Shown here piece by piece: positions 1,356-33,388 of a stretch of 36,032 nucleotides of DNA (positions within the stretch are counted from its first letter, which is position 1; each line of letters begins with the position of its first letter). The notes under the pieces are model-generated. The model was given only the letters and a program-made list of their open reading frames with translations. It was not told the origin of the DNA and ran no database searches. The position numbers were made by a program, and so were the translations under genes. This stretch comes from a virus, in IMG/VR virus record IMGVR_UViG_3300048135_000037, positions 1-36,032 of that record, one strand, 5' to 3'.

Positions 1356-4300
1356 GTGTCGGATAACAACTACAATCCAGACTTATCTTTATTAGAAGGA
1401 TTTGACAGTTCTTCTTTTTCAACAGAAAACTACAATCCAGACTTTTCTCTTTTAGAGGGAGCATCTGCCGATAATAAAGAAAATTTTTCTTTGGACAGAG
1501 AGACAGACAAGAAAAACTTTTACGACTCACTTCCTTTAGTATTTAAACAAGCATACAATCAATCTATTGGTGGAATGATGTATGAAATGACTCATGGAAA
1601 GAAAAGGTTTAATTTAATGGATGCTCCAGAAAGTATGGTGAGAGATGTTGCTGCTGGAATATTTTCATTCTTTGCTTCTCCAGAAGATATATTAATAACA
1701 GCTACTTCCGCTGGAACTGGAAGTATGTTAGCAAAAGGCGGTATAAAAGCCGCTGCTGGATTGGCTGGAAGAGAAGGTATTAACAGAACTGCTACTAAAA
1801 GAGCTGGTATATTGTTAGCAAGAAAAAGCAATCTAAGTAAAAAGGTTGCTACTGATATTGTTGAAAATGCTGTACAATTAGGAACTCCACAAGCTTTTAT
1901 GTTAGGTGCTTACGACGGATTATATGACGCAGCTAAGGAAACAAGAGATGAGTTGATAGGAGCTGGAGTAAATTTAAAAGAATTTGAAGGAAGAGATTAT
2001 GGAGATATTTTACCTTCTGTTTTAGGGAATGCAAAACTATCTAAGTTTGCAAAAGGTGCTGCTCTAGGTAGTTTGGGAGCATCTTCAAGAGTGTTAAGAA
2101 ACGTCCCAGGGTTAGGAAGGGTTTCTAAATCTGGACTAGGTTTTGAAATAGCAACTTTTTCTACTTTAAGTCCTTTAGCTTATGAAGGAAGAGCTCCTGA
2201 GTTTACAGATTTTGCTATGGCTGGAGGTATAATAGGAGCATTAAAAGTTCCTTCTGTTGGTCAAAAATTTATAAAAAATGTTAGAGAAACTAGACTAGCT
2301 CAAGAAATCATATCTGATGACGATACACTAAGAAGTTCAGCTATAAAATCTTGGTGGAAAAGTAAAGAGTCTAGACAAGGTGGAGCTATACTATATGAAC
2401 AAGCTGGAGAAGTCAGAACTTCTTCTGGAAGAGCAGACAGTATAGTAGGTCAAGCTATTGAAACTATTTCTCCAGAAGGAGGTAAGCCTGGTAAAAAAGT
2501 AGTTTCTAAAAAGAAAACTAAGATAGCTAATCATCAAACTACTGCCTCCGCTACTATCGTAGATGGTTCTTATGTAAATACAAGAGCTGGTTCTACAATG
2601 CAAATAGATTTAAGAACAGGTCCTAAGGGAACTGAAATAACTAGATATCAGTTAGACGAAGTTAATAGTAAAAAATTCTTTGACTTCTTTGTAGACTCAG
2701 AAAATCCAATATTAGCTTCAACTAATGCTGTAGAAGATTTAGGTTTAGCTAGAAAAGCATTAGAAAAAAAGAATCCAAAGCTTGTACCAGAATTGCAAGA
2801 AGCAGAATATAGAGCTTCTGTAAGAGCTGCTCTAGATAAATCTGATGGATATTTACCAGAAGATATAGAAAAAGCTTTTAGGGATACTTCTGATTTTTTA
2901 AATAGCAGAACAGCTGGAGACAGAGTTAAAAAAGACTTGTTAGCTGACGCTGTTGAAAACGGGAAAGTTTTAGATTTTGACATAAGAAAGTTGTCTTCCA
3001 AAGAAAGATATCACTTAACAGAAAATCTTAGAGCTCAAAAGTATATTAGAGAGTTTGTAGAAAACGCTAAACAATACGATACAAATTTGATGTACAATTC
3101 TAGTTTTGGAGGACAAACAGATGCAATGTCTCAAGTTTTTAGAGGTTTTAAACCTTTTTATTATCAGCTTACAGACCCTAATGCTAGAAAAGTTGTAAGA
3201 CTTTTAAACAATGTTAATCAAGGAGTTCAGCAAAAAACAGCTACTAGATTATATAATTTTATGAAAGTAGTTAACATAGCTCAAAAAGCACCTAAACCTA
3301 TTAAGAAAGCTTATGATGATTATATTAAAGGTAGCGGAAAAGTTACAGCTTATGACGACTACCAAGAAATAAGAAAGCTTCATCAAAACCAAGTTAACTC
3401 TGGAAAGAAAATAGTTTTTGGTAAAAATGACGGATTTACTTTGTTTATAAATAACTTAGAAAGGTCTAAAGCTGGAAGAAGACAAAACTCTGCAGCTTCT
3501 CAACTAACTGACAATAGAATTACTTTCTTGACTCAGATGAAAAAATTAACTGACGAAGTGTACGCCGACGCACAAACAACTCTTCCGAACCTAGAAGTAT
3601 TCGAAGTTGGATATGCCCCTACAATTATTAAAAGAGAGTTTCTAGATATTATGTATGACGGAAATAGAGAGCTTACAGAAAGAACTCAAGAAGTTTTAAA
3701 TAGATTAAAAATTATGAGAAACGATGTCGGAGACTACGCTCCTGAGGTTGAAAAAGAATTAAATGATATTATAGAGTCCACCTTAAATAAATTTTCTACA
3801 TCTAAAAGTAAAAGAAAAAGAGAGTTTTACAAAATATTTACTCAGTATAAAAATAATGTATCTAGTAATGGAAGAAAAACATTTCAAGACAATCACTCTC
3901 TGTATAACCTTCTAAACAATCAAATAGAAGACAAGAGATTGAAGCCTTATAGTTTACTTGAAAGACCTAAAGCTAAGTTTGGTAAATATGACAGAGGTGC
4001 TGACGTTGATTTGGTAAGAATGGGACTAAGAAATGCTATGGACGGATTATTTGAAAAAGATATGAAAGCTGTATTTTCTCACTATTTTACTGGAGCTAGT
4101 AAAAGAATTGAACTTTCTAAAGCGTTTACATCTACTGGAACATTATACGATGATATGTTAAAGAAAATAAACCCAGAATCCAAAATGCCTTTATCTAAAT
4201 TGCCAGATTTTTTAGGAGGAGCAAAGATGCCCTTTATGAAGCAAACTGAAAGAGAAGCAGTAGATATTTTAAAACAATCTTTCACTGGAGAGTTAAACTT

Positions 4301-5828
4301 TGCTAGAGGAGATATGGCTGGCTCTTTAACAGAAGCTTTTCAAACTATTGGTAATCTTCAGATGATGGGTAAGATTTCTTTTGGTTTTGCGGTTATTCCT
4401 AACTTAACTCAAACATTAATATCTACAGCAGTAGAAGCTGGACCTATTACATCTTTGAAATCTATGGTAAAACTTTTTGGTCCTTTTGCAGATAGAGAAT
4501 TAAGAGAGAGAGTTGGTCAAAGTGGTGCAACCCTTTTAAGTACTATTGAAGAAATGTTAACTGTAAACCCAGCTCTTAGAACTAGTGTCGAAAGAGTTAC
4601 TCAAACTCAAGCTCCTTGGAAGGATTTTATACACGGAGAAATGGGTTTAAAGGGTGGAATAGAATATGCTACTCAAAAATCTGCATATCTTTTCTCTTGG
4701 ATAAATCAAAAAAATCAGATGATTGCCGCAGCTTCTGCCGAAGAAACAGTTAAAAAGTTAACTAGAATTGTTAAAGGTAAAACCTCTGGAATAGGTCTTT
4801 TAGATTCTTTAGCTCCAGCTCAAAGAAAAAAATGGGCTATAAATAAGCTAAATAGAATGGGACTTGAGGAAAAAGATATATTAAAACATGGAGATATGAT
4901 TTTATCTGGAAGATATGAACCTATTAAAAAAACATTATTTACTGGACAAGAAGTTAGTGTTATGCATCCTATGAAAGAAAAGATGTTAAGAAGTATGCAA
5001 AAGTTCTCTATGAATACTCAGCTTCAAAGAGACTTTGTGCTAGACCCTTATTTGTTCAATGACCCAGACTTAAAACCTTTATTTCTTTTTAAGAGATTTG
5101 GATATAGACAAGCTACATATATTGGAAAAACAATAACAAGGGAAGTAGCAGACGGTAATATTATGCCTTTATTGCAATTAGGAATGGGCGGTTTAGCTGG
5201 AGGACAGTTTGTTATGTGGTCTAAAGAAAAAGCTCAAGACTTAATATCTGGAGACCCTCAATATTATGCTAGAGAGGAAAGATTGAATATGTTGAAAGAG
5301 CCAGAATGGAAAGATTTTACAAATAGACTTCAAGCAGTGGGTTCTTTAGGAGTCTTAACAGATATAATGACAGACGAAAATCCTTTAGGAGCTATAAACT
5401 TCTTTCTAAAACCTGTAGTTATAGACGATATACAAAGAATTGGAAGAGCAGCTAATGCTTTTATAGGTAGTATGGAAACAAACTATCCAGAAAATTGGGA
5501 TGTTCCATTCAGAAAAGGAGCAATAATAGCCGCTCCTGTAGCTGGTGGTGTAGTAGGAAGATTGACAAGAAGAGCTTTGCAGACAGAGAAGCAAGAAAAA
5601 GACCAAGTTAGGGCTAGAAAAAGAGATGCTGTAAGAGCTATTAAAGACGCTGTTATAGCAGACGACCCTAAAGCTGCTGTAAGAATAATGGTGGAATATA
5701 ATAAAACATATCAAGATAGATTTCCAAGCTTGAGAATAAAACCTTCAGATGTTAGTTACAGTCAAATATTAAAAGATAAAGTAGAAAGATTAAAAAAACA
5801 AAGGGAAGAGGTCGAATATAGACCATAG
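1356..5828 (+). CDS. Very large internal virion / DNA-ejection protein (putative)
   Basis: A 1490-residue protein starting at a GTG one base after the previous stop. The N-terminus carries two copies of an NYNPDxSLLEG motif 20 residues apart. The rest is largely charged helix broken by Gly/Ala-rich hydrophobic stretches (near residues 95-140, 275-290, 1000-1030, 1270-1290 and 1385-1395) that could insert into or lie on a membrane. I see no transglycosylase or protease signature. Size, amphipathic character and place at the end of the late genes fit the large internal core proteins of podoviruses that leave the particle and form a channel in the cell envelope. That assignment rests on family knowledge and context; the coding call itself is secure. 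Confidence 0.8.
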   Translation: MSDNNYNPDLSLLEGFDSSSFSTENYNPDFSLLEGASADNKENFSLDRETDKKNFYDSLPLVFKQAYNQSIGGMMYEMTHGKKRFNLMDAPESMVRDVAAGIFSFFASPEDILITATSAGTGSMLAKGGIKAAAGLAGREGINRTATKRAGILLARKSNLSKKVATDIVENAVQLGTPQAFMLGAYDGLYDAAKETRDELIGAGVNLKEFEGRDYGDILPSVLGNAKLSKFAKGAALGSLGASSRVLRNVPGLGRVSKSGLGFEIATFSTLSPLAYEGRAPEFTDFAMAGGIIGALKVPSVGQKFIKNVRETRLAQEIISDDDTLRSSAIKSWWKSKESRQGGAILYEQAGEVRTSSGRADSIVGQAIETISPEGGKPGKKVVSKKKTKIANHQTTASATIVDGSYVNTRAGSTMQIDLRTGPKGTEITRYQLDEVNSKKFFDFFVDSENPILASTNAVEDLGLARKALEKKNPKLVPELQEAEYRASVRAALDKSDGYLPEDIEKAFRDTSDFLNSRTAGDRVKKDLLADAVENGKVLDFDIRKLSSKERYHLTENLRAQKYIREFVENAKQYDTNLMYNSSFGGQTDAMSQVFRGFKPFYYQLTDPNARKVVRLLNNVNQGVQQKTATRLYNFMKVVNIAQKAPKPIKKAYDDYIKGSGKVTAYDDYQEIRKLHQNQVNSGKKIVFGKNDGFTLFINNLERSKAGRRQNSAASQLTDNRITFLTQMKKLTDEVYADAQTTLPNLEVFEVGYAPTIIKREFLDIMYDGNRELTERTQEVLNRLKIMRNDVGDYAPEVEKELNDIIESTLNKFSTSKSKRKREFYKIFTQYKNNVSSNGRKTFQDNHSLYNLLNNQIEDKRLKPYSLLERPKAKFGKYDRGADVDLVRMGLRNAMDGLFEKDMKAVFSHYFTGASKRIELSKAFTSTGTLYDDMLKKINPESKMPLSKLPDFLGGAKMPFMKQTEREAVDILKQSFTGELNFARGDMAGSLTEAFQTIGNLQMMGKISFGFAVIPNLTQTLISTAVEAGPITSLKSMVKLFGPFADRELRERVGQSGATLLSTIEEMLTVNPALRTSVERVTQTQAPWKDFIHGEMGLKGGIEYATQKSAYLFSWINQKNQMIAAASAEETVKKLTRIVKGKTSGIGLLDSLAPAQRKKWAINKLNRMGLEEKDILKHGDMILSGRYEPIKKTLFTGQEVSVMHPMKEKMLRSMQKFSMNTQLQRDFVLDPYLFNDPDLKPLFLFKRFGYRQATYIGKTITREVADGNIMPLLQLGMGGLAGGQFVMWSKEKAQDLISGDPQYYAREERLNMLKEPEWKDFTNRLQAVGSLGVLTDIMTDENPLGAINFFLKPVVIDDIQRIGRAANAFIGSMETNYPENWDVPFRKGAIIAAPVAGGVVGRLTRRALQTEKQEKDQVRARKRDAVRAIKDAVIADDPKAAVRIMVEYNKTYQDRFPSLRIKPSDVSYSQILKDKVERLKKQREEVEYRP
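1368..1444 (+). repeat. In-frame 60-bp-period direct repeat (NYNPDxSLLEG)
   Basis: A 17-bp sequence, AACTACAATCCAGACTT, occurs at 1368-1384 and again at 1428-1444, exactly 60 bp apart. It encodes the first part of the duplicated motif NYNPD-(L/F)-SLLEG at the N-terminus of the giant virion protein. The following SLLEG codons are conserved in protein but differ at several bases, which suggests selection on the peptide. Confidence 0.8.
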
Positions 5829-5836
5829 GAGATATC

Positions 5837-6418
5837 ATGAACGATAAAAGAAAACAAAGCGAACCAGAATTTCTAACAGGATTAAAAGCCTTCATAGAAA
5901 GAAAGCAAAACGAGATTATATATAACTTAGCTCAAAAAGAATTAAATCTAAGAGCTTTACTTCCGCAAGGAGAAGAGTTATCAGAAAGAGAAGATACGCT
6001 GTTATCTAGAATGGAAAGAAGTTCATCTGCTCTTGATGAAATAAAACCGAGCAAAAAAAGTTCTGAGAATGTAGAGACGATGAAAAGTTCTAGGAAAGAA
6101 GATATCTTAGAAGGCGTTGGAATGATGCTGCCTGAAGGTTCTAGGGAAAAAATGCGTAAATCTAACAAAGAAAGAAAAGAAGCTTTTGATAGAGCTCTTA
6201 AAGAAAAACCTTTAATGGATAGAATACAAGGATTTTTTAGAACTGATAACTCTGAAGATAGAGCTCTTTTAGAAGCTCTTGAATCTTACAATGAAGACTT
6301 AGATTACAGAACTAAATATTCAAATAGAGGTGGCGGTGGAGAAAAACCTCTTAAAGCAGAATATAGAAAGGCTATCGATACTCTGCTTCAACAAGCTAAG
6401 TTAGGAAAAAGAAGTTAG
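5837..6418 (+). CDS. Hypothetical helical late protein
   Basis: A 193-residue, strongly charged, probably all-helical protein with a short Gly-rich loop (GGGG) near residue 167. It starts at an ATG preceded by AGGAG eight bases after the giant virion protein, so it belongs to the same late operon. Its stop codon overlaps the stop of the convergent helicase gene (TAG at 6416-6418 against TAA at 6417-6415 on the other strand), leaving no room for an intergenic terminator. I recognise no family; a virion-internal or assembly role is only a positional guess. Confidence 0.8.
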   Translation: MNDKRKQSEPEFLTGLKAFIERKQNEIIYNLAQKELNLRALLPQGEELSEREDTLLSRMERSSSALDEIKPSKKSSENVETMKSSRKEDILEGVGMMLPEGSREKMRKSNKERKEAFDRALKEKPLMDRIQGFFRTDNSEDRALLEALESYNEDLDYRTKYSNRGGGGEKPLKAEYRKAIDTLLQQAKLGKRS

Positions 6419-13080: not shown

Positions 13081-13130
13081 CGGACGCAAAACTGCGCCCG
13101 TCCGCAATAGTAGTTTATATAAACCTACTA
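13081..13130 (-). terminator. Tandem hairpins at the end of the amidoligase gene
   Basis: Two inverted repeats follow or overlap the amidoligase stop. The first is an AT-rich hairpin, TAGTAG...CTACTA around TTTATATAAAC (13108-13130). The second is a GC-rich one, CGGAC-GCA-AAAC-TGC-GCCC-GTCCG (13081-13104). A T-rich tract (TTTATTTTTTATT on the minus strand) comes about 20 bases later rather than immediately, so termination is probable but not of textbook form; a stabilising 3' end is the alternative. Confidence 0.45.
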
Positions 13131-14833
13131 TAATCCGACTGAGTCAGATTGTTTGAAAAGTGAAACAAGTCGTGCGTATTCCCAAACTCATATGTAGGGC
13201 AATACTCAGACAATCTTGTGTCGCTAATCAAAGGAAATTGATTATGCATATTGTCTACATAGTGAAACTTGTGCGTCACTCTATCAAATTCGACTACCGA
13301 CTGCATACCTCCGAAGCAACTAGTAATATGATTCTCGTCTCTTCGTCTTATTGTTTTAGTCCTATCTTTAAAGAACTCTCTTGTTTCGTCTGGTATTCTG
13401 AAAGTGTCAAAGATATTTTCTATCGACATAAACGTTCTATCTTCTCTACTTCTTAAATATCGTAGCATAGGCTCGACTAGATAGGGCTTTTTATGTTTTG
13501 GCAATTTGAGATATCGTCTTAACATTTCGCTATCTTTTTTATACTGAGCTATGTCGGTAGACTCTCCGTCTTTCATATGATATCGGTTATACCTTAGTTC
13601 AAGCTTTCTTAGCTTGTCGTTTTTTAAAGGTACTAGCGACTTATATATTTCGTTCGATTTAAAGTTATTATATGAACTTAATTGTCCCGACTTTATTTCT
13701 TCTGCTATTTCGTAACAAGTATCTACGACATTAGTCCAAAAGATAGTCCAATGTTTTATCTTTTCCGTATTAAGAGTTCCGCCGTGATATCTTATTTCTA
13801 TTCCTTGATTTGCTTGAAAATGACAATGCAAATTAAGTCCGTGATATCTCTTGTCGTTATACTTGTCGTTACTGAAACCGCCGTTATCATAGTAAACGTC
13901 TATGAACTCATCTCTGTCTGCAATATATGCAAAGTCTTTTACAGATTGACTTACTTTCCTAGACCAATTACCCGACAATCTCGACGGAGGCACCCAAGTA
14001 TAAACATGAGGCTCTATCAACTTTGTCATTAAAGTTAAGACGCTAAAATGTAGCCAGTCGTAATCTCTTGCGTCAATATGCAAGTGAAGTCCACATCTTA
14101 CTGACGGATAAGCTTCTATTCTTTTTAAAGAACTTGTTATAGTATCCACATCTTGGACTATTAAATCTCCTCGTCGTGGTTGCATTACTATTTCATTTCC
14201 GTATCTATGTTCTGAGTCCGTTACGCTTCCGTCGTAAACTACATCTTGTCTACGAGGAGTTAATTGCAAGTCTACTTCTAATTCCCTAGACTCGTTTATT
14301 CGTCTATGTAGATAGTCTCTGATATCGCTATTATATTGTTCATCTTCATAGTTCGTCTCAATCTCTATACCGACATATCTCCTTGACTTGATAAGATTAA
14401 ATGTATCTCTTTTATAGTTATCAGTCGCAGGATTTACGAAGTCGCTATTATCTCTAATGAAGTTATTAGAGTAAACTTCCCAAACTGGTCTTTCGTCTGG
14501 GAAACAATCGTAGCAGTAATAATCTCCGGACGTTTCTGAGTATTGTGCTTCATCACTATCTATTTCACAATCACAATCGGCGCAATGCGTAATGATGTCG
14601 TAATAACAATTTTCACAATAATATTCAGAATGTAATTCAGAATATCTTGTGTCGTCGAAAGGTAAATGTTCTCCGCAGTTATCGCAATGAGTGTAGTCCT
14701 CGGAACATCCGTCACAGACATAATTTCCGTCTGGATTTGTAGACTCCATTTCTCCTTCTTCTTGCTCACAACCGCAGTCTGCACACTCTTCCATTTCCAG
14801 TATTACTTCCTCGTCGTGGTTATATTGCGTCAT
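13115..14833 (-). CDS. Amidoligase-family enzyme with N-terminal multi-zinc region
   Basis: A 572-residue protein from the ATG at 14833, chosen because GGAGG stands six bases upstream; it overlaps the glutamine amidotransferase gene by 14 bp. Residues 17-110 hold repeated CxxC pairs (17/20, 40/43, 50/53, 73/76, 84/87, 107/110), a LIM- or treble-clef-like array. Residues about 150-370 match the glutamine-synthetase-fold amidoligase family: RYVGIEIET (152-160) with the metal/ATP ExE, YDGSV (200-204), GNEIV (212-216), CGLHLHID (247-254), and IEIRYHGGTLN (345-355). Such enzymes use ATP to join an amine to a carboxylate. The C-terminal 200 residues are helical and unassigned. The substrate is unknown; a peptide, protein or cell-wall component is conceivable. 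Confidence 0.85.
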   Translation of the reverse strand: MTQYNHDEEVILEMEECADCGCEQEEGEMESTNPDGNYVCDGCSEDYTHCDNCGEHLPFDDTRYSELHSEYYCENCYYDIITHCADCDCEIDSDEAQYSETSGDYYCYDCFPDERPVWEVYSNNFIRDNSDFVNPATDNYKRDTFNLIKSRRYVGIEIETNYEDEQYNSDIRDYLHRRINESRELEVDLQLTPRRQDVVYDGSVTDSEHRYGNEIVMQPRRGDLIVQDVDTITSSLKRIEAYPSVRCGLHLHIDARDYDWLHFSVLTLMTKLIEPHVYTWVPPSRLSGNWSRKVSQSVKDFAYIADRDEFIDVYYDNGGFSNDKYNDKRYHGLNLHCHFQANQGIEIRYHGGTLNTEKIKHWTIFWTNVVDTCYEIAEEIKSGQLSSYNNFKSNEIYKSLVPLKNDKLRKLELRYNRYHMKDGESTDIAQYKKDSEMLRRYLKLPKHKKPYLVEPMLRYLRSREDRTFMSIENIFDTFRIPDETREFFKDRTKTIRRRDENHITSCFGGMQSVVEFDRVTHKFHYVDNMHNQFPLISDTRLSEYCPTYEFGNTHDLFHFSNNLTQSDYSRFI

Positions 14834-15830
14834 GCTCAGCCTCCATTTCGTCTCCAAATTGTATGTCAACAACTTGGTCTTCCGTCAATATCTGACCAGT
14901 CTCTGTGTCGTGAAACATCCACTCTTGACCTACTTCGTCCCAAAACCATTCTTCTGGACGACCTCCATAGACTTGAGCTAAATGCTCTTTTTCGTCGTCT
15001 ATATATTGTTGAGGTATTATAGGTTCCCACTCGTCATCTTGTTCAGACTGAGACCATGACGTCGCATAGTTATTTAGACTATAATGATATACTCGACTAT
15101 CATACTTGAATTTAGTCTTTTCTACATTTGTTTTGATATCGTCAAATTTCGCCGTATCAAAAGCATATAATGTATTTTTATTAAGACTATATACATCTAC
15201 GTCGTTTATACCATTCTTGACTAACGCGTCTTCTACAAAACTATCTTCACTTGCATAGAATAGTGTTTTTAATGACGGCACATAGGCGACATATAAAGGT
15301 CTATTCTCCTCACGCGTAAGATATAATTTCATAGGGTTTTTCTTGACGAAGGACAATGCGAAGTCTGCGTCAAAGTTCTGGACTGCTTCTTGTATATTGT
15401 CGCTATCGTTAAGTGATTTAAATATCAGCTGACTATCGACGGGACATTGTTTGTCCAGTTTAGTTTGCATTTCTGATATATTGTAAACACAGCCGTTATG
15501 AGCACCGACGACATCGCCGACTCTAAACGGATGAGCATTTGATTTGACTATTGCACCTTCGGTCGCAAATCGTGTATGACCTAATAAAATATAACTATCA
15601 GTTTTTAAACTACTAACTGCGTCGTGATATTCTTTCGTATCTACAAATTTGCTTGACGGCAAAAGTGATTTATATATTCTAGTGTTAGCTCCGACTTTAG
15701 CAATACCAGACGAATGAGCACCACGACTCTCGCTATCTACTGCCATTTCTCTCAACACTTTCTTAACAACTTTTAATTGCTTGTTAGTGTAAGGCGTCGG
15801 AGACTTTGCTATGCCATAAATTCCACACAT
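14820..15830 (-). CDS. Class II glutamine amidotransferase (Ntn hydrolase)
   Basis: A 336-residue protein with AAGGAGA before its ATG. It begins MCGIYGI, placing the nucleophile Cys2 at the processed N-terminus. GHTRFAT (84-90), NAHPF (98-102), GAHNG (109-113) and VDSQ (131-134) are the glutamine-binding and oxyanion residues of GAT-II domains. The domain ends near residue 230. A 100-residue acidic, Trp-rich tail (WEPIIPQQ, EEWFWDEVGQEWMFHD) replaces the synthase or isomerase domain of housekeeping members, so this is a free-standing amidohydrolase or ammonia donor. It overlaps the amidoligase gene, implying the two act together. Confidence 0.9.
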   Translation of the reverse strand: MCGIYGIAKSPTPYTNKQLKVVKKVLREMAVDSESRGAHSSGIAKVGANTRIYKSLLPSSKFVDTKEYHDAVSSLKTDSYILLGHTRFATEGAIVKSNAHPFRVGDVVGAHNGCVYNISEMQTKLDKQCPVDSQLIFKSLNDSDNIQEAVQNFDADFALSFVKKNPMKLYLTREENRPLYVAYVPSLKTLFYASEDSFVEDALVKNGINDVDVYSLNKNTLYAFDTAKFDDIKTNVEKTKFKYDSRVYHYSLNNYATSWSQSEQDDEWEPIIPQQYIDDEKEHLAQVYGGRPEEWFWDEVGQEWMFHDTETGQILTEDQVVDIQFGDEMEAEHDAI

Positions 15831-16003
15831 AGTCTGTTTCTCCTTATATTAAGGTTATCAATTAACAGACCGCTATCAAGCGTCTGTTCTGTATCAGTAT
15901 CTCTACCAAATCTTTGCGACAATCCATAGACGACTGCGAAAGGATTACAGCCCAACTGCACTCGACTAGTGCAAGAGTATTGTCTATGAATCATCGCTAC
16001 CAT
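15809..16003 (-). CDS. Small hypothetical protein in amidoligase cassette
   Basis: A 64-residue frame whose ATG directly follows the TAA of the upstream gene, with no separate ribosome site, so it would need reinitiation. It contains CNPFAVVYGLSQRFGRD and ends after a region that carries the amidotransferase's AAGGAGA. It overlaps that gene by 22 bp. Codon use resembles its neighbours. Function unknown; moderately likely to be translated. Confidence 0.5.
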   Translation of the reverse strand: MVAMIHRQYSCTSRVQLGCNPFAVVYGLSQRFGRDTDTEQTLDSGLLIDNLNIRRNRLCVEFMA

Positions 16004-19405: not shown

Positions 19406-19748
19406 CACAGCAGAAGACGTAGTATCATATATAAAAGATAACTACCCTTCTACAGAAAAAGAATTTCAAACTCTTTTAAATGAAATGTATCTAACATTTT
19501 GTAAGAAACAGTTTGATTATGGTCCTGGCAATATTGCTATGGGTACCACGTTGAAAAACGAAAAAGAAGTCAATACAGCCTTATTTGGTATAATTGTAAG
19601 GCTAAATGACAAGATAAACAGACTAGTCAATCTTTCTACTAATCACGACTTCGAGGCTAAGAATGAGCCTGTAGAAGACGCATTTTTAGATATAGCTATA
19701 TATTCAGTTATGGCATTGATAGTCAAAAACCAGAAATGGGGCAAATAA
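19389..19748 (+). CDS. DUF1599 / MazG-like nucleotide-associated protein
   Basis: A 119-residue all-helical protein with the signature KKQFDYGPGNI (39-49), GIIVRLNDKINRLVNL (67-82) and EDAFLDIAIYSVMAL (95-109). This matches the DUF1599 family, related to all-alpha NTP pyrophosphatases and found with phage nucleotide-modification genes. Acidic residues in both halves could hold Mg2+. Probable role in the nucleotide pool, not proven. Overlaps both neighbours in the operon. Confidence 0.75.
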   Translation: MNQKTSTAEDVVSYIKDNYPSTEKEFQTLLNEMYLTFCKKQFDYGPGNIAMGTTLKNEKEVNTALFGIIVRLNDKINRLVNLSTNHDFEAKNEPVEDAFLDIAIYSVMALIVKNQKWGK

Positions 19749-20479
19749 TGGCGAAAGCTAAATTATGGACAGATGAAGAAGTAGTAATATTACATCAGTA
19801 TGAAAAAACAAATAAATCTGCTTTTCAACTGTACCAGGAAATTAGGATAGCTGGATACAATAGAACGTATAAAGCTGTACAAAGAAAAATAGAAATGCTA
19901 GGATTTAGAAAACCTAAGCGATATAAAACTGGACACGAGCTAAGTATAGGATACCTAGACATAGAATCTACTGGTTTTAGTGCAAACATAGACGTTATGC
20001 TTTCTTGGTGTATAAAAGGAAGAGGAGTCAAAAAGGTAGCTGGTGCTTGCATTACAAGAGAAGAGCTTATGTCTGATAAGTCAGATGCTCGTATAGTAGA
20101 GCTTCTAGTAGAAGAAATGAACAAGTATGATGTAATATTCACATATTACGGTACTAGGTTCGATATACCTTTTATTAGAACCAGAGCTTTATATCACGGA
20201 ACATACTTTCCTATGTATAGACAAAAGTCTCACAAGGACTTATATTACGTAGTAAGGTCTAAATTAAAGCTACATCGTTCTTCATTGATGGCTGCTACAG
20301 AGTTCTTTGGTATTGATGGAAAAACAAGAATCAAACCAGAATACTGGCAAAAAGCAAGATGGGGCGATAAAAAGTCTTTAAAGTATGTATATGACCATAA
20401 TGTTGCAGATGTAGAGATATTAGAGTTATTACATAGAAAGCTAGAAGAACACGCACCACCTATGGTGAGACCATTATAA
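19748..20479 (+). CDS. DEDD-family 3'-5' exonuclease with N-terminal Myb/HTH-like domain
   Basis: A 243-residue protein starting at a TAATG overlap. Residues 6-55 (WTDEEVVILHQYEKTN, then an RTYKAVQRKIEMLGF helix) resemble a SANT/Myb-type DNA-binding helix bundle. From 67 the RNase-H-like exonuclease fold shows YLDIESTG with Asp71 and Glu73, TRFDIPF with Asp139, HKDLYYV with Asp164, and HNVADVE with Asp221. Such enzymes trim DNA or RNA 3' ends. The fused DNA-binding domain suggests targeting to phage DNA or host-DNA degradation. Confidence 0.85.
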   Translation: MAKAKLWTDEEVVILHQYEKTNKSAFQLYQEIRIAGYNRTYKAVQRKIEMLGFRKPKRYKTGHELSIGYLDIESTGFSANIDVMLSWCIKGRGVKKVAGACITREELMSDKSDARIVELLVEEMNKYDVIFTYYGTRFDIPFIRTRALYHGTYFPMYRQKSHKDLYYVVRSKLKLHRSSLMAATEFFGIDGKTRIKPEYWQKARWGDKKSLKYVYDHNVADVEILELLHRKLEEHAPPMVRPL

Positions 20480-20732: not shown

Positions 20733-21494
20733 ATGAAAGAACGCAAAGTAAAGGGTGTGACACACCTGCTTTTTGAAAGTCAAACAGAGTTTAGAGAATA
20801 TCATAGAGATATCTCTCTATCAACTGATTGGAGACATTCAAACAAGGGAGATTGGATATTGACTGACGATGGTCAGGTATGTCAAGTGTTGCACCTGGGC
20901 GTATTAAAAAAACACGACAGAAAGAAGGAAACTACCTTTATAAGAACAATAATGGGTTCTTATATATGTAGTCCTAAAGTAGTGATAAAAGGTGACATGA
21001 AAACAAACATGCATACTTTTTCTACTGCAGGCGAATCTCCTTCTGTTAGAAAGAAAAATAGAAAAAACGCTACTGATAAAGAGTTTTTGTTTGGCAAGTA
21101 CGTTGCAAAAGGAGATGATGTGGTCGAAGCATATATGAAAGCATTTCCTAGTAAAAATGAAAACTACGCTAAATCACAAGCAAAATTATTGTTAAAAACA
21201 GACAGGGTGAAAAACTTGATTAGAGAAGAAATAGATAAATACTTGAATGAAGCGGAAATTACTCCGAACTATCTTTTGGAAGAAATGAGAGACATTATAG
21301 ACAAAGGTGGCTCTTCAGATAGAGATAAGATTACAGCGATAACAACATTAATGAAAATATCTGGAATGATGGATACAGAGAAGACTACAGAGTCTTTAAC
21401 ATTATTTCAAGGTTTTACAAAGGAGCAATTAAATGCAATTCAAGGGTCCGAACACAAAAAACTGGCGGAAGTTAAGAAAGATAGCGAGAAGTAA
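20733..21494 (+). CDS. Terminase small subunit with extra N-terminal domain
   Basis: A 253-residue protein. Residues about 115-175 (EFLFGKYVAKGDDVVEAYMKAF, then SQAKLLLKTDRVKNLIREEI) match the terminase-small-subunit HTH that binds pac or cos DNA. The rest is a helical oligomerisation and C-terminal region. The first ~95 residues are an added beta-rich domain (GDWILTDDGQVCQVLHLGVL, TFIRTIMGSYICSP). It lies three genes upstream of the large terminase. Its last 62 bp encode a zinc ribbon in another frame. Confidence 0.85.
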   Translation: MKERKVKGVTHLLFESQTEFREYHRDISLSTDWRHSNKGDWILTDDGQVCQVLHLGVLKKHDRKKETTFIRTIMGSYICSPKVVIKGDMKTNMHTFSTAGESPSVRKKNRKNATDKEFLFGKYVAKGDDVVEAYMKAFPSKNENYAKSQAKLLLKTDRVKNLIREEIDKYLNEAEITPNYLLEEMRDIIDKGGSSDRDKITAITTLMKISGMMDTEKTTESLTLFQGFTKEQLNAIQGSEHKKLAEVKKDSEK

Positions 21495-21660
21495 TCGTTG
21501 TTTAATTTGTCACTATCCTTTAAAGAAAACAGCAGTATTCTTATGGAGTGCTAAGAAAAAAGACACTACGCATATAAAATGCTTTAACTGTTTAACAGTA
21601 TATAATAAATCATTTGGAATTACCGACGTAGGTATACCAAGAGAGGTAGGTGAATCATGA
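21433..21660 (+). CDS. Small zinc-ribbon protein
   Basis: A 75-residue basic protein with CLIC and CFNC pairs (residues 23-26 and 50-53). AAAGGAG lies inside the terminase small-subunit gene, eight bases before this ATG, so the 62-bp overlap is genuine. The stop overlaps the next ATG (ATGA). Basic charge and zinc site suggest nucleic-acid binding, perhaps in packaging. Confidence 0.75.
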   Translation: MQFKGPNTKNWRKLRKIARSNRCLICHYPLKKTAVFLWSAKKKDTTHIKCFNCLTVYNKSFGITDVGIPREVGES

Positions 21661-22058
21661 GATTAGCTGTATATGGAACTCTTAGAAGAGGATTTGAAGA
21701 AACTGGAAAAATAGAAGATTTCAGTTTAGTATTTCCTGGTCACAAGCATTTTCCAGCTTTAATTAAAAATAAAAAAGGAAAAGGAGCTGTAGTAGAGGTT
21801 CTAGATGTAGATAAAGAAGAACTAAGTATGTATGATATGTACGAGTCTGTAAAAGACGGTCTTTATATAAGGACTACAGTAGATGTTATAATGGATGATA
21901 CAGATGAAAAAGAAAAGTGTTGGGTCTATGTAGCTGGACCATTGCTTTGGCAAAACTCTAGTATGTTTACAGAAGTACCAGACGGAGATTGGCTTTCACC
22001 TAAAACATTAGTAATGATGGATAGAGTTTATGAAAAAGAATACCAAGAAGCCAGATAA
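21657..22058 (+). CDS. Gamma-glutamylcyclotransferase-family protein (AIG2-like)
   Basis: A 133-residue protein beginning LAVYGTLRRG, the substrate-binding loop of the GGCT/AIG2 fold. YDMYESVKDG with Glu63 provides the catalytic acid, and YIRTTVDV and CWVYVAG form the following strands. Members convert gamma-glutamyl amines or peptides to 5-oxoproline plus free amine. Its presence in the same phage as an amidoligase and a class II amidotransferase suggests it trims or reverses a gamma-glutamyl-type product. It overlaps the large terminase start by 29 bp, so it is transcribed with packaging genes. Confidence 0.9.
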   Translation: MRLAVYGTLRRGFEETGKIEDFSLVFPGHKHFPALIKNKKGKGAVVEVLDVDKEELSMYDMYESVKDGLYIRTTVDVIMDDTDEKEKCWVYVAGPLLWQNSSMFTEVPDGDWLSPKTLVMMDRVYEKEYQEAR

Positions 22059-28974: not shown

Positions 28975-29141
28975 TGGCTAAAAAGAAAAAACGCGCAACT
29001 GGTAAGCCTACACCGACTAACCCAAGCAAGTGGTCTTATTATATATCACAAGCAAAGAAAAAGTTTGATGTATATCCAAGTGCTTATGCAAATGCTTGGG
29101 CATCTAAGCAATACAAAAAAGCTGGAGGCGGTTGGAAGTAA
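28974..29141 (+). CDS. Small basic protein
   Basis: A 55-residue protein with a basic start (MAKKKKRATGKPTPTNPSKW) and a KKKFDVYPSAYANAWASK motif followed by GGGW. TAATG overlaps at both ends. The aromatic FDVYPSAYANAW pattern recurs in phage late regions; function unknown. Confidence 0.7.
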   Translation: MAKKKKRATGKPTPTNPSKWSYYISQAKKKFDVYPSAYANAWASKQYKKAGGGWK

Positions 29142-29413
29142 TGGCCTACAGGGGCGGACTTAGAAAGTGGTTTAGCGAGGACTGGGTTGATATCGGTTCT
29201 AAGAAAAAAGGCGGAGGACATAAAAAGTGTGGACGTAAAAAAGCTAAGGGAAGTAAAAGGAAATACCCTAAGTGTGTTCCTGCTTCTAAAGCAGCAAGTA
29301 TGAGCGCCTCACAAAAAAAGAGTGCAGTAAGAAGAAAAAGAGCAAAGAAACAAGGAGTTGGTGGTAAACCGACGAATGTAAGAACTTTTACTAGAAGAAA
29401 GAAGAAGAAATGA
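29141..29413 (+). CDS. Small basic DUF5872-like protein
   Basis: A 90-residue, very basic protein. I use the ATG at 29141, which overlaps the preceding TAA. GLRKWFSEDWVDIGSKKKGG, then CGRKKAKGSKRKYPKC and a SMSASQKKSAVRRKR segment match small phage proteins with a conserved Cys pair and basic tail, recalled as DUF5872. Probably binds nucleic acid in or near the particle. Confidence 0.75.
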   Translation: MAYRGGLRKWFSEDWVDIGSKKKGGGHKKCGRKKAKGSKRKYPKCVPASKAASMSASQKKSAVRRKRAKKQGVGGKPTNVRTFTRRKKKK

Positions 29414-32569: not shown

Positions 32570-32953
32570 ATGAACAACAGATTTATATCATACTTGGTAT
32601 TAACGCTTTGCTCATCGCTATCATGGCTGCACTCACAATCAGTCAACTTAGATAGCTTTGACCAAATACAAGCGCTTAATATACAAAAATGCGCAGTAGT
32701 GCAAGTTAATGCGGGCTGGAATTATCAGAATAGAGTAAAGGTAGAGAAATTAGCTAACCTTTGCTATATAGGAGAAATAGACTTGACCAATAAAACTGTT
32801 GGTGCAGTCATTCAGAAGGAGTGGAATATCAAGGTTGTCCCTACTATTATCATCCTGAAAGAAGGTAAAGAAATTATGAGATATGAGCCTGGTATAAGTA
32901 TGAGGTTTGACGAAACAGAAGTATTTAATAAGATTAAAAAAGTTATTAAATAA
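32570..32953 (+). CDS. Exported thioredoxin-fold protein lacking CxxC
   Basis: A 127-residue protein with an N-terminal signal sequence (about 1-23, charged MNNR then YLVLTLCSSLSWLHS). The rest follows the thioredoxin fold: VVQVNAGWNYQN where active members have WCxxC, then IGEIDLTN, VVPTIIILKEGKE with the cis-Pro, and RYEPG. The two catalytic cysteines are absent (NYQN in their place), so it is probably a binding, not a redox, protein. Other cysteines (41 and 65) are not placed as an active site. It may act in the periplasm or envelope. Confidence 0.75.
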   Translation: MNNRFISYLVLTLCSSLSWLHSQSVNLDSFDQIQALNIQKCAVVQVNAGWNYQNRVKVEKLANLCYIGEIDLTNKTVGAVIQKEWNIKVVPTIIILKEGKEIMRYEPGISMRFDETEVFNKIKKVIK

Positions 32954-33117
32954 TGTTTAACGGACCAAACGGAGCTGGTAAAGGTGATAAGCCTAGAGGT
33001 ATGAAAATATCTAGAAAAGAATTTGAAAATAGATGGGAAAAGATTTTTGGACACAAAGGTGTAAATAAAGATATATTCAAGGAAGACAATGCCAAGAAAA
33101 AAAACAAAAGCAATTAG
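32953..33117 (+). CDS. Small basic hypothetical protein
   Basis: A 54-residue protein starting at a TAATG overlap: MFNGPNGAGKGDKPRGMKIS, then KEFENRWEKIFGHK. It overlaps the next gene by 29 bp. Short phage proteins with this KGDKPRG opening recur beside tail genes; role unknown. Confidence 0.65.
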   Translation: MFNGPNGAGKGDKPRGMKISRKEFENRWEKIFGHKGVNKDIFKEDNAKKKNKSN

Positions 33118-33388
33118 AAAGACAACTAAGGGAAAAAACGCTAACTACAGGCCTACGAAGAAAGGCGCTGGTATGACAAAAAAAGGCGTTAAAGCTTACA
33201 GAAAAGCTAACCCTGGAAGTAAATTAAAAACTGCTGTTACTGGTAAAGTTAAAAAAGGTAGCAAGGCAGCTAAAAGAAGAAAGTCTTATTGCGCAAGGTC
33301 TTTAGGACAACTAAAAAGAAGTTCTGCTAAAACTAGGAATAATCCTAATTCTAGAATAAGACAAGCGCGTAAAAGATGGAAATGCTAA
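33089..33388 (+). CDS. Basic DUF6321-like nucleic-acid-binding protein
   Basis: A 99-residue, highly basic protein (about 40% Lys/Arg). GAGMTKKGVKAYRKANPGSK and KRRKSYCARSLGQLKRSS are the recognisable core. Such proteins are seen beside phage packaging and tail genes, and the charge suggests DNA binding in the capsid or at ejection. It starts inside the preceding gene, after AAGGAAG. Confidence 0.8.
   Translation: MPRKKTKAIRKTTKGKNANYRPTKKGAGMTKKGVKAYRKANPGSKLKTAVTGKVKKGSKAAKRRKSYCARSLGQLKRSSAKTRNNPNSRIRQARKRWKC

Follow-up and report, generated by a model that had tools for sequence, protein, structure and literature searches.

A minimal amidoligase and glutamine amidotransferase pair, with a zinc module that apparently changes partner, at the core of an uncultured phage clade

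The window analysed here (36,032 bases) is the whole IMG/VR virus record IMGVR_UViG_3300048135_000037 and belongs to a tailed, aquatic phage in which terminase and DnaB helicase genes were recognised. In its variable leftward region, alongside replication genes, a gene for a stand-alone class II glutamine amidotransferase (GAT) is followed on the minus strand by one for an amidoligase (AL), the two having 14 bp in common (Table 1). The Shine-Dalgarno motif of AL lies inside the GAT gene, and the two are likely to be translationally coupled. A third gene, for a gamma-glutamylcyclotransferase (GGCT), is located 6 kb from the pair on the opposite strand, between the terminase subunits in the terminase operon, where it overlaps TerL by 29 bp.

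Table 1. Positions in the window of the three genes, their start signals and their principal domains.
Feature	Position	Strand	Basis
GAT, stand-alone class II (Ntn) glutamine amidotransferase, 336 aa	14820..15830	-	Pfam, PHROG, AF2, Foldseek, alignment
Shine-Dalgarno AAGGAG of GAT	15840..15845	-	sequence
GAT C-terminal folded acidic Trp domain (predicted), residues 274-335	14826..15011	-	AF2, alignment
AL, Amidoligase_2 protein, 572 aa from ATG 14833	13115..14833	-	Pfam PF12224, AF2, VIA-align
Shine-Dalgarno GGAGG of AL, within the GAT 3' end	14840..14844	-	sequence
AL N-terminal zinc array, residues 17-110	14504..14785	-	Cys conservation, spacing, charge
AL catalytic domain, glutamine synthetase (GS)-like (predicted), residues about 145-385	13679..14401	-	invariant columns, predicted fold
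GGCT, GGACT/AIG2-like gamma-glutamylcyclotransferase, 133 aa, Glu63	21657..22058	+	Pfam GGACT, conservation

Several other genes of the window were recorded. A small Cys4 zinc protein (21433-21660) separates TerS from GGCT in every inspected clade locus reaching this region and has no Pfam family above cut-off. The structural operon encodes two small, very basic, Lys/Arg-rich proteins (29132-29413 and 33089-33388), and a short protein at 32570-32953, with no PHROG match, shows by eye a signal-like N-terminus and a thioredoxin-like sequence without CxxC. The open reading frame adjoining the pair (15809-16003) was considered as a gene for a peptide substrate and rejected, being matched in the nearest relatives only (L001, L002 and L010) and not core. 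PADLOC returned no match to an anti-phage defence family. None of the isolated phages searched was close to the window, and a pattern scan of 84,980 genomes with A1, for prokaryotic homologues or a host, confirmed no relative.

AL matched Pfam Amidoligase_2 (PF12224) at 6e-22 and 79.1 bits, the curated cut-off being 22. The mechanical open reading frame begins at a TTG 13 codons before ATG 14833; numbered from this ATG, the zinc array (17-110), GIEIE (155-159) and CGLHLHID (247-254) fall exactly where the initial annotation had placed them. The catalytic motifs are G-x-E-x-E, within GIEIE, H-x-H-x-D (250-254) and E346-x-R348-Y-H350, and G155, E157, E159, H250, H252, D254, R348 and H350 were kept in all 32 aligned relatives. 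The AF2 model obtained with clade alignments (pLDDT 80.7) has a predicted glutamine-synthetase-like fold, the absence of which had been fixed beforehand as grounds for rejecting the assignment. In VIA-align, its best match was YbdK (Z 13.2), followed by glutamine synthetase (12.7), glutamate-cysteine ligase (12.4) and, lower, Dop and gamma-glutamylmethylamide synthetase (both 11.1). In one relative (L009:9983-11723), the amidoligase is spread over two overlapping frames (452 + 166 aa), a frameshift that is either biological or a sequencing error.

GAT matched Pfam GATase_6 (3e-15) and PHROG 4736 (1e-41). The motifs MCGIYGI, GHTRFAT and GAHNG were found, in agreement with the class II assignment made from the sequence alone; the protein has the class II hallmarks of a Cys at position 2, an Arg/Asn-Gly/Asp glutamine pocket and a predicted Ntn fold. 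Catalytic Cys2 and the glutamine-binding residues R87, N112-G113 and D132 were invariant in 27 of 27 relatives, and no loss of catalytic Glu or Cys was thus observed in either enzyme. The AF2 model from clade alignments (pLDDT 82.9) was closest in Foldseek to GlmS (1.8e-13); PurF was also matched, and EgtC more weakly. The acidic, Trp-rich tail described for this protein is indeed acidic (net charge -0.18 per residue), with W295 and W304 invariant in the alignment of relatives, but it is hardly a tail: the model predicts a flexible linker (about 248-269) and then a folded alpha-beta3-alpha domain (274-335), with a pLDDT mostly of 82-90 that drops at the extreme end.

GGCT matched Pfam GGACT (PF06094) at 4.7e-15, and its YGTLR loop and Glu63 were invariant in 52 relatives, so that its identification also holds. 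Its tblastn search against phage records gave no match although profile searches do detect GGCT there, BLAST being insufficiently sensitive for this family.

Scans with AL, GAT and TerL collected many partial genomes forming one phage group, hereafter the clade. All clade loci extending 9 kb or more upstream of TerL showed the GAT-AL order (67/67), and all those extending 400 b or more contained GGCT (130/130), an association that exceeds chance; several loci are views of one contig. The triple is thus core to the clade, and more distant TerL relatives are consistent with it wherever the contig extends far enough. After removal of duplicates, 30 genomes held all five compared genes. Mean pairwise distances in these genomes were 0.56 for AL, 0.37 for GAT, 0.23 for GGCT and 0.12 for TerL; of all five genes, AL is the most divergent, and for a core gene it evolves fast. 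Positive selection on AL was rejected, its dN/dS of 0.2-0.4 being higher than that of most neighbours yet below 1. Once terminase divergence was removed, AL and GAT still diverged together (partial r 0.84), the corresponding value for AL and GGCT being just 0.20. Co-divergence of AL and GAT does not prove their contact, since adjacent genes are inherited together.

Compared with the window, L020 and L102 have a backbone that is 95-98% identical, a GAT that is about 71% identical (dS about 1.8) and an AL that is about 45% identical (dS about 2.4). By these values, the pair has been swapped as a block, through recombinational exchange. The exonuclease gene of the window (19736-20479) differs from that of L010 and L002 by a dS of about 0.6, the other compared genes being at about 0.25 or less, which we attribute to a putative separate recombination event. 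In L006 (16749-19908, against 1356-6418 of the window), unrelated or 23% identical genes replace the terminal part of the region for the large structural protein, and the replication genes beside it are otherwise conserved.

The triple is already known in phages, and profile and gene-order checks showed it to recur in unrelated ones. The three-family link pointed out for this locus is thus real; it is also less novel than the initial annotation implied. Iyer et al. 2009 is reportedly the origin of the functional prediction for the phage amidoligase cassette. The same families have been described in RIO-1, phiEco32, LUZ24, PA11 and OM43 phages, in most cases with a putative role in peptidoglycan modification or superinfection (PMC5498523, PMC10580990, PMC11945000, PMC3890496). 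In the papers searched, we found no experimental test of the function of the phage amidoligase cassette, which is published there only as a prediction (PMC10580990, PMC5498523, PMC11945000).

In other phages, AL was near GAT on the same strand in 88 of 90 loci, including a minimal Arthrobacter cluster; this sample, assembled through a single pattern scan based on GAT and completed with named phages, is biased to relatives of the first sequence of that scan. Like the window, the cassettes of Pseudoalteromonas RIO-1, Pseudomonas LUZ24/DL54/PA11, phiEco32-like phages and Salmonella 7-11 associate Amidoligase_2 with a class II GATase and often GGCT, and are set in an early or replication region, as is our pair. 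They also contain a COOH-NH2 ligase and an ATP-grasp, and their GATase bears a zinc unit, whereas the window has the pair alone, zinc on AL, and GGCT at a distance on the other strand. The COOH-NH2 ligase (PF14395) was found in none of 15 clade records, the same search being positive in 4 of 6 other phages, and the RimK-type ATP-grasp (PF08443, the sole ATP-grasp family searched) in none of the same number of clade records and in 13 of 14 control genomes. The Arthrobacter phages Wheelbite and Laroye resemble the window in having the minimal three families and no other ligases in the fetched region, and differ from it by an adjacent GGCT-AL-GAT order and by the presence of zinc on neither protein. 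AL and GGCT occur together in Blautia (gut), Geobacillus GR1 and Heliusvirales phages, in whose fetched regions no GAT was seen. Blautia and other Heliusvirales phages (L201, L384) have GGCT close to their terminase, and in L390 (4950-6393) an amidoligase and GGCT pair is found beside head genes, the record naming Anaeroplasmataceae (Mollicutes) as host. Amidoligases are also annotated in Catovirus and Hyperionvirus, two viruses of eukaryotes.

The zinc array of AL consists of three C-x2-C-x(about 19)-C-x2-C units. Ten of its 12 Cys were kept in 37/37 relatives and the other two, C17 and C50, in 35/37; the sequence between them is variable, and the array nevertheless remains acidic across relatives (-0.21 to -0.30 per residue, mean -0.26). 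It is not a LIM domain proper, its linkers being of 6-7 residues against two in LIM and no Pfam LIM match being obtained; L137 gave a weak one (8e-5). Among the best matches of the AL model in BFVD were two proteins of uncultured Caudovirales with 18% identity or less to AL, A0A6J7X5D3 (Amidoligase, E 4e-17) and A0A6J7X2B6 (E 2e-13). The latter is named 'LIM domain containing protein', and, judging from this name, LIM-like zinc modules fused to an amidoligase are probably already in public data, uncommented.

In other phages, the zinc unit lies elsewhere. Their GATase C-terminus bears a C-x2-C-x(about 20)-C-x2-C unit (three units in Salmonella 7-11), and in the biased sample described above (n=88 pairs) zinc was on GAT only in 78 pairs, on neither protein in 10 and on AL in none. 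The 10 pairs lacking it imply that the unit is not essential everywhere. In the clade, the three-unit array was present on 37 of 37 ALs and a knuckle on 2 of 42 GATs, being absent from the other 40 and from the GAT of the window. The deep clade members L372, L351, L361/L137 and L136 combine a short GAT knuckle with the AL array, a state that a transition would predict, and the clade GATs were monophyletic in the tree (support 0.98). The profile HMMs of the AL and GAT units each recognised units of the other kind, with means of 9.5 and 7.6 bits, the controls giving 2.5 and -2.0 bits for Cys-preserving shuffles and 1.3 and 0.1 bits for 80 natural CxxC-CxxC segments; these scores are modest (best 20-23 bits) for a relocation, as zinc knuckles converge easily. 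What appears to be new is the change of partner of the zinc module, which would have passed from the GAT C-terminus to the AL N-terminus, together with the presence of the minimal version of the pair among the core genes of an uncultured clade.

A module found on either of two neighbouring proteins is a usual sign of joint work. Together with adjacency and co-divergence, it suggests that GAT and AL form a physical complex and favours the part of the initial annotation in which the two act together; the participation of GGCT in the same reaction is weak, because its divergence follows the terminase. We rejected a common pathway with GGCT as one of its steps, since this gene belongs to a separate operon and does not track GAT-AL. 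Being conserved but tied to the terminase, it is at most accessory, and a looser link with the amidoligase may exist, other phages repeatedly having the two genes side by side. Docking of the GAT tail onto the zinc array, as had been proposed, is not favoured: both are strongly negative, with a net charge of -29 over 102 residues for the array and -22 over 90 residues for the tail. An acidic array with variable sequence and fixed Cys better fits the docking of a basic partner.

We thus favour, as slightly on the probable side, a reading in which GAT and AL constitute one glutamine-dependent amidation machine equipped with an acidic zinc adaptor, GGCT being a separate accessory. Both proteins would probably be made early in infection. 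GAT would hydrolyse glutamine through its Cys2 Ntn mechanism and hand the ammonia to AL, whose GS-like site would use ATP to phosphorylate a carboxylate and would convert it into an amide. The acidic Cys4-zinc module would be a shared adaptor, carried by the GAT C-terminus in most phages and by the AL N-terminus in the window clade, and would most likely recruit a substrate-bearing or positively charged partner, not the acidic tail of the other enzyme. GGCT would be a late-operon accessory able to remove gamma-glutamyl groups. That ammonia of glutamine would end up in an amide is what the families of AL and GAT imply; direct ammonia transfer is an assumption, since free ammonia or amines can serve as substrates for GS-like ligases and EgtC-type class II domains remove gamma-glutamyl groups.

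The published proposal for RIO-1, phiEco32, LUZ24, PA11 and OM43 phages (PMC5498523, PMC10580990, PMC11945000) would have the pair amidate or relink carboxylates on the stem peptides of the host wall, with GGCT trimming, so that rival phages or their lysins fail (superinfection). The position of the pair in a variable region with replication genes fits this proposal, as does the fast evolution of AL, conflict genes often evolving in this way. A comparable logic is seen in MurT-GatD of Staphylococcus aureus, whose amidotransferase is of class I. This system, like our pair, combines a ligase and a glutamine amidotransferase encoded by two genes and amidates the D-Glu of peptidoglycan in a glutamine-dependent manner (PMC3267633), but it has a Mur-ligase fold and we claim no homology. 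Neither the COOH-NH2 ligase nor the RimK ATP-grasp that belong to the long cassette, however, were found in the 15 clade records, and an AL-GGCT pair is present in the phage whose record names an Anaeroplasmataceae host. Mollicutes are wall-less; this phage and the amidoligases of Catovirus and Hyperionvirus suggest that wall chemistry is not the whole story for the family. We consider the wall proposal unlikely for the clade, though a serious candidate.

In another reading, which we judge improbable, AL-GAT would be a targeted protein amidase, its array docking a host or rival-phage protein whose acidic side chains or C-terminus would be converted into amides, a modification that to our knowledge is not known from phages. 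Quite improbable, finally, is a small-molecule role in which AL would join glutamate to an amine or cysteine-like acceptor (as YbdK, GCL or EgtA), GAT would be an EgtC-like hydrolase and GGCT would degrade the products: the structural matches of AL to YbdK, glutamate-cysteine ligase and gamma-glutamylmethylamide synthetase, that of GAT to EgtC (E 1.3e-9) and the adjacency of GGCT to AL where no GAT was seen agree with it, but GAT scores higher with GlmS and PurF than with EgtC and retains all of its glutamine-binding residues, a zinc array of this size and conservation is difficult to account for in a ligase acting on small molecules, and GGCT does not co-diverge with the pair.

The partner-changing zinc module is evidence that GAT and AL act as a single complex, and it offers a handle for finding the target, by array deletion and pull-down. 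The minimal two-gene version of the clade studied here is the form of the cassette in which its function is easiest to test.
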